Shown one piece after another: positions 8,312-14,603 of a stretch of DNA of 64,000 nt. The notes under the pieces were generated by a model. That model had not been told where the DNA came from. It saw only the letters and a program-made list of their open reading frames with translations, and ran no database searches. Each line of letters starts with the position of its first letter. Within the stretch, counting starts at the first letter, position 1. Source of the DNA: Akkermansia muciniphila (GTDB taxonomy: Bacteria > Pseudomonadota > Gammaproteobacteria > Burkholderiales > Burkholderiaceae_C); contig CALQKH020000004.1 in assembly GCA_943331105.2 (NCBI GenBank), positions 1 to 64,000 on the forward strand. Direction: 5' to 3'. A program made the translations under genes and the position numbers.

Positions 8312-11300
8312 TCACACCCGCGCCAGCACCGGCCCCAGCGCCACGCCCGTGTGCGTACCCAAGATCACCAGCGCCTCGGGCGTCATGGCCGCCACGATGC
8401 GGCCACCGGCGTTGCCGCCTTCGGGCCCCAGGTCAATCACCCAGTCGGCTTCGGCGATCACATCCAAGTCGTGCTCGATCACGATCACGCTGTGGCCTGC
8501 ATTCACCAATCGGTGCAACACGCTGATCAGCTTGTCCACATCGGCCATGTGCAGGCCCACAGTGGGTTCGTCCAGCACATACAGCGTGTGCGGCGCCTTG
8601 TTGCCGCGCTTGCCCACTTCGTCTCGCACCTTGGTGAGCTCGGTCACCAACTTGATGCGCTGCGCCTCGCCACCGCTCAGGGTGGGTGAAGGCTGACCCA
8701 AAGTGAGGTAACCCAGGCCCACGTCTTTGAGCAACTGCAGCGGGTGGGCGATGCTGGGCATGCTGGCAAAAAAGTCAACCGCCTCATCCACTTCCATCTG
8801 CAACACATCGCCAATGCTCTTACCGCGCCAAGTGACAGCCAGCGTTTCTGGGTTGAAACGGGCACCTCGGCAGGTTTCGCAAGGCACTTTCACATCGGGC
8901 AAAAAACTCATCTCGATGGTGCGCATACCCTGGCCTTCGCAGCTGGGGCAGCGGCCTTCGCCGGTATTGAAGCTGAAGCGACCGGCTGCGTAGCCACGCG
9001 CCTTGGCTTCCAGCGTTTCGGCAAACAGTTTGCGGATCGTGTCCCAAAAGCCAATGTACGTGGCCGGGCATGAACGTGGGGTTTTGCCAATCGGCGTTTG
9101 GTCGACTTCAAGCACGCGGTCAATCGTCTCAAAGCCTTGCACATCGCTGCACGCGGTCAAAGCCACGCGTTGGCCTGCGTCTTGCGCGGTGCGTCCAGCA
9201 AAAGTAGAGCGTTGGCTGACCAGTGCCTGCACATTGGCCAGCAACACGTCGCGGGCCAAGGTGGATTTGCCGGAGCCACTGACGCCCGTGACGGCCACCA
9301 AGCGCTTGAGTGGGACCTGCACATCGACCTGGCGCAGGTTGTGCAAATTGGCGCCTGTCAGGGTGAGCCATTGCAGGGGAGCCGCCGCAGCTTCCACAGC
9401 TTCTGCGTGGGGCGGTGGCGTGGGTGCCGATTTTGGCGTACCCCCGCCATATGAGGCGACCGCGCCGCCGCCCCGCGCAGAAGCACCCACCACCCGACGC
9501 ATCTGCATCGGATGCTTCATCGCATGCAACAAATACCGCCCAGTCTGTGAATCGGCAGAAGCCGTGATATCGGCCACCGACCCCTCAGCCACCAAGCGGC
9601 CACCACGCTTGCCCGCGCTCGGCCCAATGTCGATGATGTGGTCGGCGCGGCGGATCGTGTCTTCGTCGTGCTCCACCACCACCAGCGTGTTGCCTTTGTC
9701 GCCCAACTTGTGCAAGGCATTGAGCAAGATCTGGTTGTCGCGGGCGTGCAAACCGATGGTGGGCTCGTCTAAAACGTAGCAGACGCCCTGCAAGTTGCTG
9801 CCGAGTTGGGCGGCCAAGCGGATGCGCTGCGCCTCGCCACCCGACAAGGTGGGCGCGCCCCGGTCCAGCGTGAGGTAACCCAAACCCACTTCTTCCAAAA
9901 ATTCCAAACGGCTTTTGATTTCTGGCACCAGATCCCGGGCGATGTCGGCATCGCGGCCCGTGAGCTGCAGTTTGTCCACCCAATGCCGCACATCGGTGAC
10001 GGACAAACTGGCGATGTCGGTGATGCGCCAGCCTTGTCCCGGAGCCGAGCCCAAGCGCACAGAGCGGGCCGTGGCGTTCAGGCGGGTACCTTCGCAGCTG
10101 GGGCAAGCCACGTTGGCCAAGTCTTCGATTTCGGGTTCGGCAAAGGTTTGTTCGCGGCCCTTGTTTTTGTCGTCCTGCACCGAGTCGTCAAATACTTGGC
10201 GTTCGTCTTTGCTGAGCTTGACACCCGTGCCCACGCAATCGGGGCACCAGCCGTGTTTGCTGTTGTAGGAGAACAAGCGCGGGTCGAGCTCGGCATACGA
10301 GGTGGCACAGGCCGGGCAAGCCCGCAGGGTCGAGAAAACGCGGTGCTGACCGATGCGGGCGGTGGACTCGCCGCTGAACATGGCTTCGCGCAGACCGTCC
10401 AGGTCGCTCAACACATGCACCACGCCTTTGCCATGTTCCAGTGTTTTGGTCAGGGCCTGACGGAGCGCAGTTTCGTTGGTGGGCAGCACATCCAAACTGG
10501 CCACAGGCAGTTCGATGTTGTGCTCTTTGAATCGATCGATGCGCGGAAAACCTTGCGTGGGTAAAAAATCGCCATCGACGCGCAAATGGGTGTAACCACG
10601 CGGTCGCGCCCAGTCGGCCAGCTCTGTGTAAACGCCTTTGCGGTTGGTGACCAAAGGCGCCAACAAGCCAATGTGCTCGCCGCGGAATTGCGTCATCAGC
10701 TGCGCGACGATGCTGTCGGGCGTTTGCGGCTGCACGGGAGTGTTGTCGTGCACGCAATGCTGAATGCCCAGCTTGACGTAGAGCAGGCGCAAGAAATGCC
10801 AAACCTCGGTGGTCGTGCCCACCGTGGATTTGCGACCACCGCGCGACAAGCGCTGCTCAATCGCCACAGTGGGCGGGATGCCGTACACCGCATCCACCTC
10901 GGGGCGGCCTGCAGGCTGCACGATGCTGCGGGCATAGGCGTTCAAACTTTCCAAATAGCGGCGCTGGCCTTCGTTGAACAGGATGTCAAAAGCCAACGTG
11001 GATTTGCCGGAACCGCTCACGCCGGTCACGACGTTGAACTTGCCACGTGGAATGTCCACGCTCAGGTTTTTGAGGTTGTGCTCTTTGGCGTTGACGATCT
11101 GGATGTTGTTGTTGAGCACAGGGGTACGCCGAGTAACCGGAGCAACGGAGGTGGCACCCTCCCGACTGCGAACGCTGGCCAGCGAGGCTGCGGTGTCAGA
11201 GGGTGACGATTTGGGCGTACCCCCGCCGTATGAGGAACCCGCTGACACCGCAGCCTCGCCCCCACCCACGTACACATCCGCACTAGACCGCTCAGCCACC

Positions 11301-14300
11301 CCAAACACCTCACCCATAGAAGCTGCGTACTCGCGCAACGCCAGCCCCGTGTGCGATGTGGCGTGTTGGCGAACGTCCTCTGGCGTGCCCTCGGCCACGA
11401 CCAAGCCCCCGGCATACCCGCCTTCTGGGCCCAAGTCGATCAGCCAATCGCTGGCCCGGATCACATCCAGGTTGTGCTCGATGACGATGAGCGAATGCCC
11501 GGCTTCGAGCAGCTTACGCAAGGCCCGCATGAGCTTGGCGATGTCGTCAAAATGCAGGCCGGTGGTCGGCTCGTCAAACAAAAACAGCGTGCCCTTGCGC
11601 GCCAGGCTCTGGCGGCTCTTGGACGCGCTCTTGGCGGCCTCGGCCAAAAATCCTGCAAGCTTCAGGCGCTGCGCCTCACCGCCCGACAGCGTGGGCACAG
11701 GTTGGCCCAAGCGCACATATTCCAGCCCCACATCGACGATGGGTTGCAGGGCACGTATGACTTCGCGGTCTTGGGCGAACAAAGCCGCAGCCTCGCTCAC
11801 GGTGAGCTGCAAAATATCGGCCACATTGAGGTGGCGTAACGCGCCGCCGATGGCCTGGCGCTCGACGGTGATCTCCAGAATTTCAGGACGGTAACGCTTG
11901 CCGTCACAATCGGGGCAGCGCAAGTACACGTCGCTCAAAAATTGCATCTCCACATGCTCAAAGCCCGAGCCGCCACAAGTGGGGCATCGCCCGTCGCCGC
12001 CGTTGAAGCTGAACTTGCTGGCGGTGTAGCCGCGCTGGCGTGACAGCGGCACGGTCGCAAAAATCTCGCGGATCGCATCCCACGCGCCCACATAGCTCAC
12101 GGGGTTGGAACGCGCGGTTTTGCCAATCGGCGACTGGTCCACAAACACCATATCACTCAAGTGGTCTGCACCCAACAATCGGTCGTGTGCACCAGGGGTT
12201 TCGGTGGCTTTTCCAAAGTGACGCATCAGCGCTGGGGCCAACACGTCCTGGATCAAACTCGACTTGCCCGAGCCGCTCACACCCGTGATGGTGACCAGGC
12301 GCTGCAGCGGAAAGTCCACGCTGATGTTTTGCAGGTTGTGTTCGCGTGCGCCTTCCAGAATCAAACGCGGCGTGCTGTCAGACACCATGCGCTTGAAGCC
12401 CAGGCCCACTTGTTTGCGTCCACCCAGATATGCGCCTGTGAGTGTGTCGGCCTTGCGCAGGTCGGCGGTGGTGCCGTCAAACACAATTTGCCCGCCGCGC
12501 TCGCCAGGGCCAGGGCCCATGTCGATCATGCGGTCGGCCGCCATCATCACGGCCGGGTCGTGCTCGACCACGACCAGGGTGTTGCCCGCATCGCGCAGGC
12601 GGTGCATGGCCAAGGTGATGCGGTGCATGTCACGCGGGTGCAGGCCGATGCTGGGCTCGTCCAGCACGAACAAGGTGTTGACCAAGCTGGTGCCCAGGGC
12701 GGTGGTGAGGTTGATGCGCTGCACTTCACCGCCGCTCAAGGTGCGGCTTTGGCGGTCAAGGGTGAGGTAGCCAATGCCCACGTCGCACAGGTATTTGAGG
12801 CGGGTGGTGATTTCTTCGAGCAGCAGTTGCAGGGCTTTTTGTTCGGCGCTTTTGCCTTGTCCTGGTTCTTCTTTTGCGGCCCCTACGGCTTCGGCCGGGG
12901 ATGGGCTGGGTGACGATTTTGGCGTACCCCCGCCGTATGAGGAGCCCAGCCCATCCCCGGCCGGAGCCTCCCCTGCTGCAAGGGAGGCATGCCCAGAAGC
13001 CGACAAGCGGTCAAAAAACAAACGCAAACGATCGAGCGGCATGATCATCATGTCGTGCAGGCTCAAACCCGGCAGCGCCTCCAATTGCGCCCGCGACCAC
13101 TTCACGCCTGCGGGCATGAACCGCTTTTCCACCGGCAAAACCCCATCGGCATCCGAATGACTGCCAATGCGCCACAACAAACTCTCGGTCTTTAAACGGG
13201 CACCTTGGCAGGTCGGGCACTCTGTGTAACTGCGGTACTTGGACAAGAGCACGCGGATGTGCATCTTGTAGGCCTTGCTCTCTAAGTACTCAAAAAAGCG
13301 CTTCACGCCATACCACTGGTGGTTCCAGCGGCCCTTCCACTCGGGTGAACCATTGATCACCCAGTCTTGCTGGGCTTTCGTCAACTTGTCCCATGGCGTG
13401 TCCCGTGGAATGCCGGCCGCCTCGGCATGGCGCATCAGGTCGTCCTGGTTTTCTTGCCAAGCCGGCGTTTGCAGCGTCTTGATGGCCCCGGCCCGCAGCG
13501 TGAGCTTGGGGTTGGGAATGACCAAGCCGTAGTCGACGCCGATCACCCGCCCAAAACCCCGGCAGGTCTCGCACGCACCCACCGCCGAGTTGAAAGAAAA
13601 CATCGACGGGATCGGGTCGGTGTAACGCTGGTCGCTGTCGGGGCAATGCAGGCCGGTGGAAAAGCGCCAGATGTCGAAGGCGGTCTCGGAAGGAGAAAAA
13701 TTGGGATCTGACCCCAATTTCTCCACATACACATTCAGGCGGCCGCCTCGTTTCAAGGCCACTTCGATGGCTTCGACCACGCGGGCTTTTTCGGCATTGC
13801 CAATGCGAAAGCGATCGGCAATCACGTCCAGCACTTTGCGCGGGCCGGTGGGTGTGGCCACTTCGCGCTCGGCCTGCACTTTGGTGAAGCCACTGGCCGA
13901 CAGCCATTGCTCGATCTGCTCGGCACTGGTGTTCGCTGGCAACTCCACCGGGAAGGTCAGGTACAAACGCGGGTCACCCGCCTGCGCGGCACGCTGGGCC
14001 AATTCGGCGTAAATCGTGTCGGGGTTGTCGTGGCGCACCGGCTGCGCCGTGTCTTTGTCAAACAACTGACCCAATCGGGCGAACAACAACTTGAGGTGGT
14101 CGTTCAGCTCGGTCATGGTGCCCACGGTAGAGCGCGAACTGCGCACCGGGTTGGTCTGGTCGATCGCAATCGCCGGGGGCACGCCTTCGACCTTGTCCAC
14201 CGCCGGTTTGTCCATGCGGTCCAAAAACTGGCGCGCATAGGCGCTGAAGGTCTCTACATAGCGGCGCTGGCCCTCTGCGTACAGCGTGTCGAACACCAGG

Positions 14301-14422
14301 CTCGACTTGCCGGAGCCACTCGGACCGGTGACCACTGTGAGTTCACCCGTTCGGATGTCGAGGTCGAGGTTTTTGAGGTTGTGCTGACGGGCACCACGGA
14401 TGCGGATGAGACCTTGGGACAT
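8312..14422 (-). CDS. uvrA: Tandem-fused excinuclease ABC subunit A (double UvrA) with in-frame palindromic insertions
   Basis: A single 2036-residue ORF equal to two UvrA proteins in line. UvrA is the ATP-dependent damage-recognition subunit of nucleotide excision repair. Four ABC modules are visible: Walker A at about 31 ([15 protein letters not shown]), 711 ([13 protein letters not shown]), 1132 ([15 protein letters not shown]) and 1711 ([15 protein letters not shown]). Each has its own LSGGE signature and DEP(S/T)xGLH Walker B. Zn-finger pairs (CPTCGGSGF ... [12 protein letters not shown] ... [12 protein letters not shown] ... CETC) are intact. The first half ends near residue 1040; the second begins near 1090. 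ATG 14422 ([18 protein letters not shown]) is chosen because the conserved UvrA start follows. Four palindromic DNA elements are read through at about residues 234-244, 485-512, 1055-1080 and 1647-1675, all in loops or linkers. A conventional uvrA probably exists elsewhere; the double form may have another role. Confidence 0.93.
9399..9484. repeat. In-frame palindromic element, copy 1 (SYGGGTPKS core)
   Basis: A core shared with the other two copies (about 9425-9456) sits between 22-base arms: 9399-9420 (GCTTCTGCGTGGGGC...) and 9463-9484. The arms are complementary at 20 of 22 positions, and the two exceptions are G-T wobbles. On the coding strand it reads [21 protein letters not shown] in the linker between the two ATPase modules of the second UvrA half. 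This is the most diverged of the three copies. Confidence 0.85.
11182..11259. repeat. In-frame palindromic element, copy 2
   Basis: Perfect 18-base inverted arms (11182-11199 GCGAGGCTGCGGTGTCAG and 11242-11259) enclose a 42-base loop holding the common core. The coding strand reads [20 protein letters not shown]. It lies in the junction that joins the two UvrA halves. The arm sequence is unrelated to the arms of copies 1 and 3, while the core is nearly identical. Confidence 0.9.
12887..12968. repeat. In-frame palindromic element, copy 3
   Basis: Inverted arms 12887-12910 and 12945-12968 pair over 24 bases with one G-T wobble; the inner 19 pairs (CGGCCGGGGATGGGCTGGG and its complement) are perfect. 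The 34-base loop (12911-12944) is the common core. The coding strand reads [20 protein letters not shown] in the surface loop preceding the conserved helix [13 protein letters not shown] of the first UvrA half. Confidence 0.92.
13692..13724. repeat. REP-like palindrome read in frame within uvrA
   Basis: GGAGAAAAATTGGG (13692-13705) and CCCCAATTTCTCC (13712-13724) form a near-perfect hairpin with the centre ATCTGA. On the coding strand the centre reads TTGGGGTCAGATCCCAA, the type of GGGGTCAGA-cored palindrome often found as scattered REP-like sequence in proteobacteria. It adds [11 protein letters not shown] (about residues 234-244) where ordinary UvrA runs directly from GRLNVYV to the RFSTGLHC segment. 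It is unrelated to the three SYGGGTPKS elements. Confidence 0.75.
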
Positions 14423-14603
14423 GCTGGGCTTTGTGGGGTGGAGGCCAAACATTCTAGGGCCGCGCCCCAGGCACCTTGGACAAGTCAAGTTTGTCCCTTT
14501 TTCTTGACCGGGATCATGAAAACCAACGACTTTTCAGCCGCTCAAACCTGGCGGATGCCAGAATGAAAAAACCTTTCTCACCACGAAAGGACGGGGCCAG
14601 AAC

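Follow-up and report, generated by a model that had tools for sequence, protein, structure and literature searches.

A REP/BIME-like family of putatively mobile hairpin pairs with a constant internal loop and free but paired stems, resident in double-length uvrA genes

The double-length uvrA gene and its three hairpins

The window, by which we mean the whole stretch of 64,000 nucleotides analysed here, contains a double-length uvrA gene of Limnohabitans (ORF 8312–14488 on the minus strand, with TTG as the listed start). It encodes a protein of 2058 aa, the first half of which is matched by solved UvrA structures. Its 513-aa middle part is matched in 87 of the 90 genomes of the genus, a count that also includes canonical uvrA genes. 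The double gene hosts three hairpins, all on the plus strand. The first (9401–9482; 85.5 bits with our covariance model R1) lies at site B, the inter-module linker of the second half, with arms at 9401–9424 and 9459–9482 and a core at 9425–9456. Site A, the junction between both UvrA halves, holds the second (11180–11261; again 85.5 bits), whose arms at 11180–11203 and 11238–11261 enclose a core at 11204–11235. The third (12887–12968; 100 bits) occupies site C, a linker of the first half that precedes a 22-residue stretch, with arms at 12887–12910 and 12945–12968 and a core at 12911–12942. With this last core (copy 3) as the reference, those at sites A and B carry one and two mismatches, respectively. 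Each hairpin consists of a near-constant core of ~32 nt within 24-nt paired arms that differ between copies.

The sequence-only reading of this DNA had described three copies of a repeated core, enclosed by long inverted repeats and inserted in frame, and all three statements were confirmed. In the window, the 20-mer TGACGATTTTGGCGTACCCC has three matches with up to three mismatches, where shuffled sequences are expected to give 0.03. The arms of copy 3 are 96% complementary over 24 nt and those of copy 2 96% over 23 nt, while the arms of copy 1 are 78% complementary over 40 nt when counted into the core. All inserts are read in frame within the single 2058-aa ORF, in linkers. As single-stranded DNA, each hairpin folds better than 200 shuffled sequences by 6.6 to 9.5 SD, whichever strand is taken. 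Two further statements stood in part. The common orientation of the copies holds within the window but not as a rule, the loop at site A being inverted in genomes G004 and G052; an extra element (F) at the third site has the opposite orientation in many relatives. The core is free of stop codons if the coding strand is meant, but on the plus strand of copies 2 and 3 one frame contains two TGA codons.

A fixed internal loop between free but paired stems

The same reading had taken a 33-base core as the conserved unit. Only the internal loop, 5'-YGACGATTT / YATGAGGAR-3', which separates the long outer stem from the short inner hairpin, turned out to be conserved; the inner hairpin is variable, and elements typically come as inverted pairs. 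They are about 75–90 nt long; both stems, outer and inner, vary, as does the orientation of the loop, with pairing retained. We infer that the loop may comprise a C-G pair flanked by two tandem G.A mispairs. Among 76 elements with outer stems of 24 bp, 38 arm-independent types could be distinguished. At site A, the core is 98.1% identical among 22 genomes, while identity at fourfold sites in this gene is 72.1%.

The earlier suggestion that pairing is kept while the arms change was borne out by covariation, by redealing of arms and by arm-independent sets. In the 24-row alignment A1, 93.4% of cells are paired, as compared with 64.1% after shuffling and 43–51% after sliding, although these figures lean upward because rows were taken best-paired first within each site; covariation in the same alignment is 0.739 versus 0.189. 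The chimeric copies L080 and L088 belong to the 108-copy set and were excluded from the alignment, and L141 is aligned yet absent from R1. At orthologous site B, 25 arm pairs taken without any pairing-based choice show 84.7% Watson-Crick pairing, versus 72.7% with redealt right arms (maximum over 200 rounds, 77.8%). Elsewhere, D and E lie at or slightly over the shuffle maximum and A, C and F lie inside it. A loop pattern blind to the arms recovered at least 18 of 24 arm pairs in 285 of 309 contexts, the maximum with shuffled flanks being 17.

Wobbles in the stems favour one strand. G.T exceeds A.C by 36:7 in the 38 arm-independent elements and by 40:7 in a larger element set; the excess is reversed at site A (27 A.C, 5 G.T) and weak in the uvrA subset of the larger set (14:7, p 0.19). 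The interval rule for uvrA assignment breaks at linkers and assigned just 30 of 163 elements, a count on which we do not rely. The model R1 itself scores G.U above A.C. The 5' arm is G-rich in 38 of 38 and in 284 of 285 elements, possibly in part as a result of the locus-finding method.

Spread, inverted pairs and occupied linkers

R1 detected relatives in 87 of the 90 genomes of the genus. Within the family, 20 of 126 genera, this genus among them, gave matches, and a sample of the order gave none beyond the family; as R1 was trained on long stems, stemless relatives would escape detection. The core could be regarded as a genus-specific 32-mer, which is literally correct (40 of 90 genus genomes with up to three mismatches; a 31-mer of it in 5 of 397 family genomes and one of 126 genera) yet misleading, the structural family found with the covariance model being wider. 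A match in Sphingomonas, with a partial loop and no stem, was judged to be due to chance. Copies also exist beyond uvrA, as the sequence-only reading had proposed to check: they lie in the recQ–queC region of the window's own genome, and there are many others. By a simple ORF rule, 50 of 77 classed elements are intergenic, often soon after stop codons (52 nt or less in 25 of 43 measured cases); others lie in frame in protein linkers, those of double uvrA foremost. In four genomes (G125, G200, G322 and G404), the sole match at E<=1e-6 sits in uvrA, which is odd for an active mobile element.

Distinct neighbouring elements are inverted in 49 of 52 pairs, with 49 (-,+), three (+,+) and no (+,-) arrangements after removal of one duplicate (earlier counts, 50 and 3). 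Members of an inverted pair are 30–170 nt apart, with their GACGAT ends face to face. Loops also occur inverted between identical arms, for instance downstream of xseA in G037 as compared with G006, and both element orientations are found in one uvrA reading frame. The ORFs listed between distant hairpins at four loci (L287, L280, L284 and L289) were considered as cargo genes and rejected, having no common mobile-element look. No phage or plasmid partner came to light in two scans of viral contigs for exact patterns or in a single distant search of plasmids with the G027 pair, all of which would miss diverged copies.

In 16 double-uvrA genes of eight other genera, with UvrA identity of about 65–76%, copies are present at one to three of the linkers C, A and B. 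One set of these labels was interpolated linearly from BLAST matches and has wide limits; in the anchor-based placement, A and B were assigned where both anchors were found and C mostly via the right anchor alone. The 20 regions examined had been picked because uvrA was suspected. Element-free orthologous sites also exist: 18 of 40 genomes have a 39-nt site-C linker without any element. The orientation of the loop sets the encoded peptide (..DDF..HEE.. versus ..SS..KSS..), and in other genomes the same uvrA linkers hold other palindrome families. The in-frame copies, the copies outside the gene and the element-free sites together support the proposal of a coding-compatible palindromic element family.

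Known repeats, alternative explanations and a proposed reading

We favour, with a probability of about 0.58, a REP/BIME-like family of putative, perhaps formerly, mobile hairpin pairs in which the fold is kept rather than the stem sequence. The published account of REP, BIME and REPIN repeats describes small hairpins, often inverted dimers, located after stop codons and in some cases in frame (PMC3733652), and the pairs described above share the inverted-dimer arrangement. In-frame REPs are already in print for uvrA of Thioalkalivibrio and O. terrae and for uvrB of R. conorii (PMC3733652). However, GTAG/CGTC REPs have stems of 5–13 bp whose sequence is specific to the family, and they bear a GTAG or CGTC tag at one end (Di Nocera 2013, PMC3733652), whereas the present hairpins have sequence-free stems of at least 24 bp, many of them of independent type, and their constant part is the internal loop. 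In two sets of 37 and 38 elements, inspection of the 8-nt flanks by eye gave no constant GTAG or CGTC foot; GACG, which is CGTC on the other strand, is present inside the loop.

Other known systems resemble these elements in part. Rickettsia palindromic elements are, as related in PMC3733652, palindromic DNA inserted in frame into genes that remain open. The likeness, drawn from that description, lies in this mode of insertion, while a layout with constant loop and free stems is not among the features described in the available text of the same source. BRE repeats of Bordetella (75–91 bp, GC-rich), also present in Comamonadaceae, have some copies wholly within coding sequence (Hot 2011, PMC3110155); compared by description only, they differ in being sequence-conserved and tandem (VNTR). 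No Rfam match and, BRE aside (again compared by description), no counterpart in the papers searched was found for a family with free stems and a fixed loop.

That these are simply ordinary REPs or REPINs of a known family, moved by a resident RAYT and with unusually diverged stems, appears unlikely to us. Their inverted dimers, post-stop position and insertion into a repair gene do fit published REP behaviour (PMC3733652), and a subset in several genera has common feet (ttcgcag before, cgagctca after). A RAYT-type (Y1_Tnp) gene, for which the sequence-only reading advised a search, is present in 85 of 90 genus genomes. Y1_Tnp is also found in 28 of 28 family-sample genomes with at least two elements, versus 297 of 397 overall, an association that is weak because the genomes are related, and a short Y1_Tnp gene lies 1.4–1.8 kb from the site-B copy in G008, G014 and G023. 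Against this explanation, a short conserved stem with a GTAG or CGTC tag is lacking, and RAYT genes flanked by cognate repeats, as known for REPINs, were not found: R1 had no match in the 5 kb around the Y1 gene of the window's own genome (L205), and around those of L201–L204 it recovered only the uvrA site-B copies of L202 and L203, none of them flanking the gene. In other genomes, proximity of Y1 genes and elements was judged from listed positions only. A Y1 match is absent from 5 of 48 element-bearing family genomes. The window contains no relic of the short uvrA-adjacent Y1_Tnp of G008, G014, G023 and G073, in a search for which only the G008 protein was a fair query.

The sequence-only reading had also raised fold-back duplication as one of two possibilities, in which insertion of a fixed core is accompanied by reverse copying of the flank and the arms thus arise locally at each site. 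Element-free sites offer some arguments for it. At site B, G020 and G059 read gtggatgcttctttg-caa, while filled genomes have the outer left arm gcttctttg and a new caaagaagc at the right; the element-free site B of G052 holds ggggcaatggcgc, 13 nt that filled genomes have in their inner left arm, and the left arm at this site may therefore represent older flanking sequence or what is left of a lost copy. Where filled genomes read gaggctgcgg at site A, G025, in which this element is missing, carries gggggctgcggcc. Within one genome, moreover, arms vary by site. As a general rule, fold-back is nevertheless not supported, because whole pairs, arms included, were copied between sites: G027 has near-identical arms in four intergenic pairs, and G211 has copies of one pair at three uvrA linkers with an identical 135-nt spacing, the left arm of the + hairpin being common to the three at 21–23 of 24 positions and the - arms being less alike. 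The 39-nt site-C linkers of the 18 element-free genomes likewise contain no arm of such length. We consider this origin quite improbable.

Equally improbable in our view is retention of the hairpins in the linkers for an effect on uvrA expression, DNA structure or the protein. The shared linkers of the eight other genera, the far better conservation of the site-A core than of fourfold sites and the four genomes with their only match in uvrA all point in that direction, and same-linker retention across genera could reflect selection for function. On the other hand, relatives often have the gene without an element, the peptides differ between the two orientations, these linkers hold other families of palindromes elsewhere and most classed elements are intergenic. 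A structured RNA (leader, 3'-UTR element or sRNA) with stems serving a transcript function would agree with the covariation, the conserved loop, the wobble-tolerant strand and the short distances to stop codons, but is very improbable, as orientation relative to the host gene changes (at xseA, at uvrA site A and within a single reading frame), the G.T-favoured strand is opposite to the uvrA mRNA at sites B and C, and no Rfam family reaches threshold over any element. At 16 loci tested against Rfam 15, the gathering threshold was reached only by two tRNAs and a DUF805 RNA adjoining elements, and sub-threshold matches were mostly to miRNA models, which fit any long hairpin.

Under the favoured reading of a REP/BIME-like family, the inverted pair would be, or have been, a non-autonomous mobile unit recognised via its single-strand fold, which would leave the stem sequence free to drift. 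The drift of the arms and the inversion of loops resemble template switching during replication, a process described for inverted repeats with homogenisation of arms and inversion of the spacer (PMC8604942, PMC8794818), although it is a mutational process rather than an element family and leaves the constant loop unexplained. Such switching at replication may copy one arm into the other and also invert the loop. Drift would then stay paired because arms are copied in this way, and also because copies without pairing would no longer be recognised in the way, whatever it is, that keeps the loop constant. The inserts in uvrA presumably survive because linkers tolerate a hydrophilic in-frame peptide. 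A Y1 (RAYT-type) transposase acting in trans would be the most natural candidate mobiliser.

More tentatively, one may envisage a class of mobile hairpins inherited by fold, in which recognition depends on the double tandem-G.A loop alone, either stem may take any sequence that still pairs, template switching preserves the pairing and flips the loop, and the double-uvrA linkers have, across genera, been a long-retained or favoured site. These elements offer a natural system for telling four features apart, namely the sequence and the pairing of the stems and the sequence and the orientation of the loop. Many orthologous sites, filled and element-free, are available, and with them selection and template switching can be tested as sources of compensatory stem changes. 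They also sharpen an old puzzle, the recurrence of in-frame palindromic repeats in genes of nucleotide excision repair.

The hairpin family and its range

Our analysis shows that the palindromic family is real and that its range is wider than the sequence-only reading had seen. The three copies in the double uvrA lie where that reading had placed them and occupy linker sites B (9401-9482), A (11180-11261) and C (12887-12968), far above the number expected by chance; their arms, long inverted repeats peculiar to each copy, are as it had described, and strong folding was computed for each. All three are carried by a single uninterrupted ORF of 2058 aa. The core also occurs outside uvrA, as two further copies in the recQ-queC intergenic region of the same genome, each with its own arms.

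At three mismatches or fewer, the core was found in 40 of the 90 Limnohabitans genomes and in one of the 126 genera of the host family. Six orthologous sites take in 108 of the 110 distinct core contexts (among the loci then compared, two chimeras included), four in uvrA (A, B, C and F) and two near recQ-queC (D and E). Element F is an inverted neighbour of site C, which stands without it in our genome. The chimeric copies (L080:2314-2395 and L088:204-285) have a single core between arms of two different sites, perhaps through recombination across the core or misassembly. A short tandem repeat, gcccagccgc, lies beside the queC-side element at L006:5168-5240.

A covariance model of the family, R1, built from 24 copies, matched 87 of the 90 genus genomes (E <= 0.01), with 7 to 31 matches per genome under laxer filters in the nine genus genomes examined. 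At E <= 1e-6 it matched 48 of 397 family genomes and 20 of 126 genera, our own counted; in a sample of the order (339 genomes, 145 genera), the four genomes with a match all belong to the host family. Divergent members retain CGATTT and ATGAGG, mostly preceded by Y-G-A and followed by A-R, around a variable inner hairpin (CTGGTACCCCAG, CTGCTCGCAG, TGGCTTGCCG, GTGGCCGCGCAGCGGACGG and others). The internal loop would consist of two tandem G.A pairs; in some members, Watson-Crick pairs take the place of the outermost pair of mispairs (GGGCACCGATTT..ATGAGGTGCCC). The variant GAGGAATCGGAG..GACTGACGA (L348:3640-3715, L339:5738-5813 and L340:1633-1708) resembles this internal loop after an exchange of its two strands. 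Some elements in more than one genus (L270, L281, L298, L300, L302 and L311) share feet outside the hairpin, ttcgcag 5' and cgagctca 3'. A DUF805 RNA (RF03081), detected just at threshold at L291:1375-1443(-), adjoins an element; the two are different motifs.

Insertion in uvrA linkers and elsewhere

Of the 25 loci L291-L315 from the host family, ten fall within the double uvrA. Among 20 larger regions, chosen on suspicion of uvrA, 16 are double uvrA and come from eight genera. The 45 R1 matches in the 16 regions, three of these matches scoring below 31 bits, all map to linker C, A or B, and the ten element-bearing linkers that were translated are all in frame and free of stops. The same linkers host other palindrome families in frame in relatives, in G004, G063 and G024 (AATTGGGGTCAGATCCCAATT-like), in G025/G050 (GGATCCTCGGGTCAAGCCCGAGGATGAC), in G050 (CTCTCCCGC..GCGGGAGAGGG) and at loci L135, L146, L154, L157 and L133.

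Judged from sequence, in-frame copies are also likely in a DNA polymerase III alpha-type gene, in a molybdopterin iron-sulphur oxidoreductase gene and, on a weak match, in the leucyl-tRNA synthetase of our genome, where a decayed element occupies an editing-domain stretch of the ORF (G000:C7:158739-158814, locus L275). A simple ORF rule placed 27 of 77 elements within long ORFs, some possibly spurious, and 50 between genes; the distance to a stop codon was 52 nt or less in 25 of 43 measured cases, and the genes preceding intergenic copies include xseA, dbpA, boxB, glmS, serS and ttcA.

Empty sites were found as well. A 39-nt linker lacking the element occupies site C in 18 of the 40 genomes having both site-C anchors. 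The recQ-queC spacer holds elements, decayed elements or element-element joins among relatives, and in genome G048 is an element-free 68 nt.

Pairing of the arms and copying of hairpin pairs

In the 24-row alignment, 93.4% of cells were paired, as against 64.1% when shuffled and 43-51% when slid; the observed value leans upward, as rows were taken best-paired first within each site. Of 309 contexts retrieved by a loop pattern blind to the arms, 285 formed 18 or more of the 24 arm pairs, whereas no more than 17 formed with shuffled flanks. Redealing right arms within site B lowered pairing from 84.7% to 72.7% (maximum 77.8%, 200 shuffles). The observed pairing just exceeded the shuffle maximum at site E, equalled it at D, and did not stand out from the shuffles at A, C and F, whose arms differ little. 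G.T mispairs outnumbered A.C by 36:7 in 38 arm-independent elements, 40:7 in a larger set (only 14:7 in its uvrA part) and 126:37 at the six sites together (95 unique arm pairs). As R1 rates G.U higher than A.C, the first figures may partly reflect ascertainment. At site A the bias is reversed (5 G.T, 27 A.C).

The site-A core is 98.1% identical, against 72.1% at fourfold sites of the neighbouring uvrA segment (22 genomes), a difference that reflects either purifying selection or the copying of one element onto another. The latter is hinted at because some core variants, such as TTTGGGCG in G021, are common to several sites of one genome.

At site B there are hints of an arm that was formerly flank, as expected if arms are made locally by reverse copying of the flank (fold-back duplication). 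Copying of whole pairs speaks against this as a general rule. Among 52 distinct neighbour pairs at most 300 nt apart, 49 are (-,+), three (+,+) and none (+,-). In genome G027, four copies of a pair of about 220 bp, almost alike in their arms, lie within 10 kb of intergenic DNA, and G211 has a pair in each of the three uvrA linkers, with a start spacing of 135 nt throughout; left arms of its + hairpins agree at 21-23 of 24 positions, those of its - hairpins at fewer. Arms are therefore able to travel with the loop.

The loop can also turn: 3' of xseA it is reversed between G037 and G006, with both arms and the flank base in common, and at uvrA site A it is reversed in G004 and G052, with partly similar arms. 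Two reports (PMC8604942, PMC8794818) describe how template switching homogenises arms, inverts spacers and maintains stems, and a process of this kind may act on the elements.

A putative transposase and known repeat families

The sequence-only reading had proposed to look for a RAYT gene. Y1_Tnp matches occur in 85 of the 90 genus genomes; no element lies in the 5 kb around the Y1 gene of our genome. The domain is found in 297 of 397 family genomes, in 43 of the 48 that bear elements and in all 28 with at least two, a co-occurrence to be read against related genomes and a high base rate. Four genomes have a short Y1_Tnp gene close to the double uvrA (G008:C3:51079, G023:C23:239720, G014:C9:42088 and G073:C55:8109); in G008, G014 and G023 its distance to the site-B copy is 1.4-1.8 kb. 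No family elements were found flanking these genes, no relic of the gene was seen in the window with one fair query protein, and searches for family elements in phages and plasmids found nothing.

Di Nocera 2013 (PMC3733652) describes REPs lying within repair genes, uvrA among them, as well as REP inverted dimers. Apart from the beta-proteobacterial repeat element BRE, a possible counterpart described in Hot 2011 (PMC3110155), titles and abstracts of mostly non-subscription literature gave no match to such a family in Limnohabitans or Comamonadaceae or as a tandem-GA mobile hairpin. The palindromes fit best among the REP/BIME-like elements, as a new variant defined by its structure; they would be recognised through their fold, possibly by a Y1 enzyme acting in trans.
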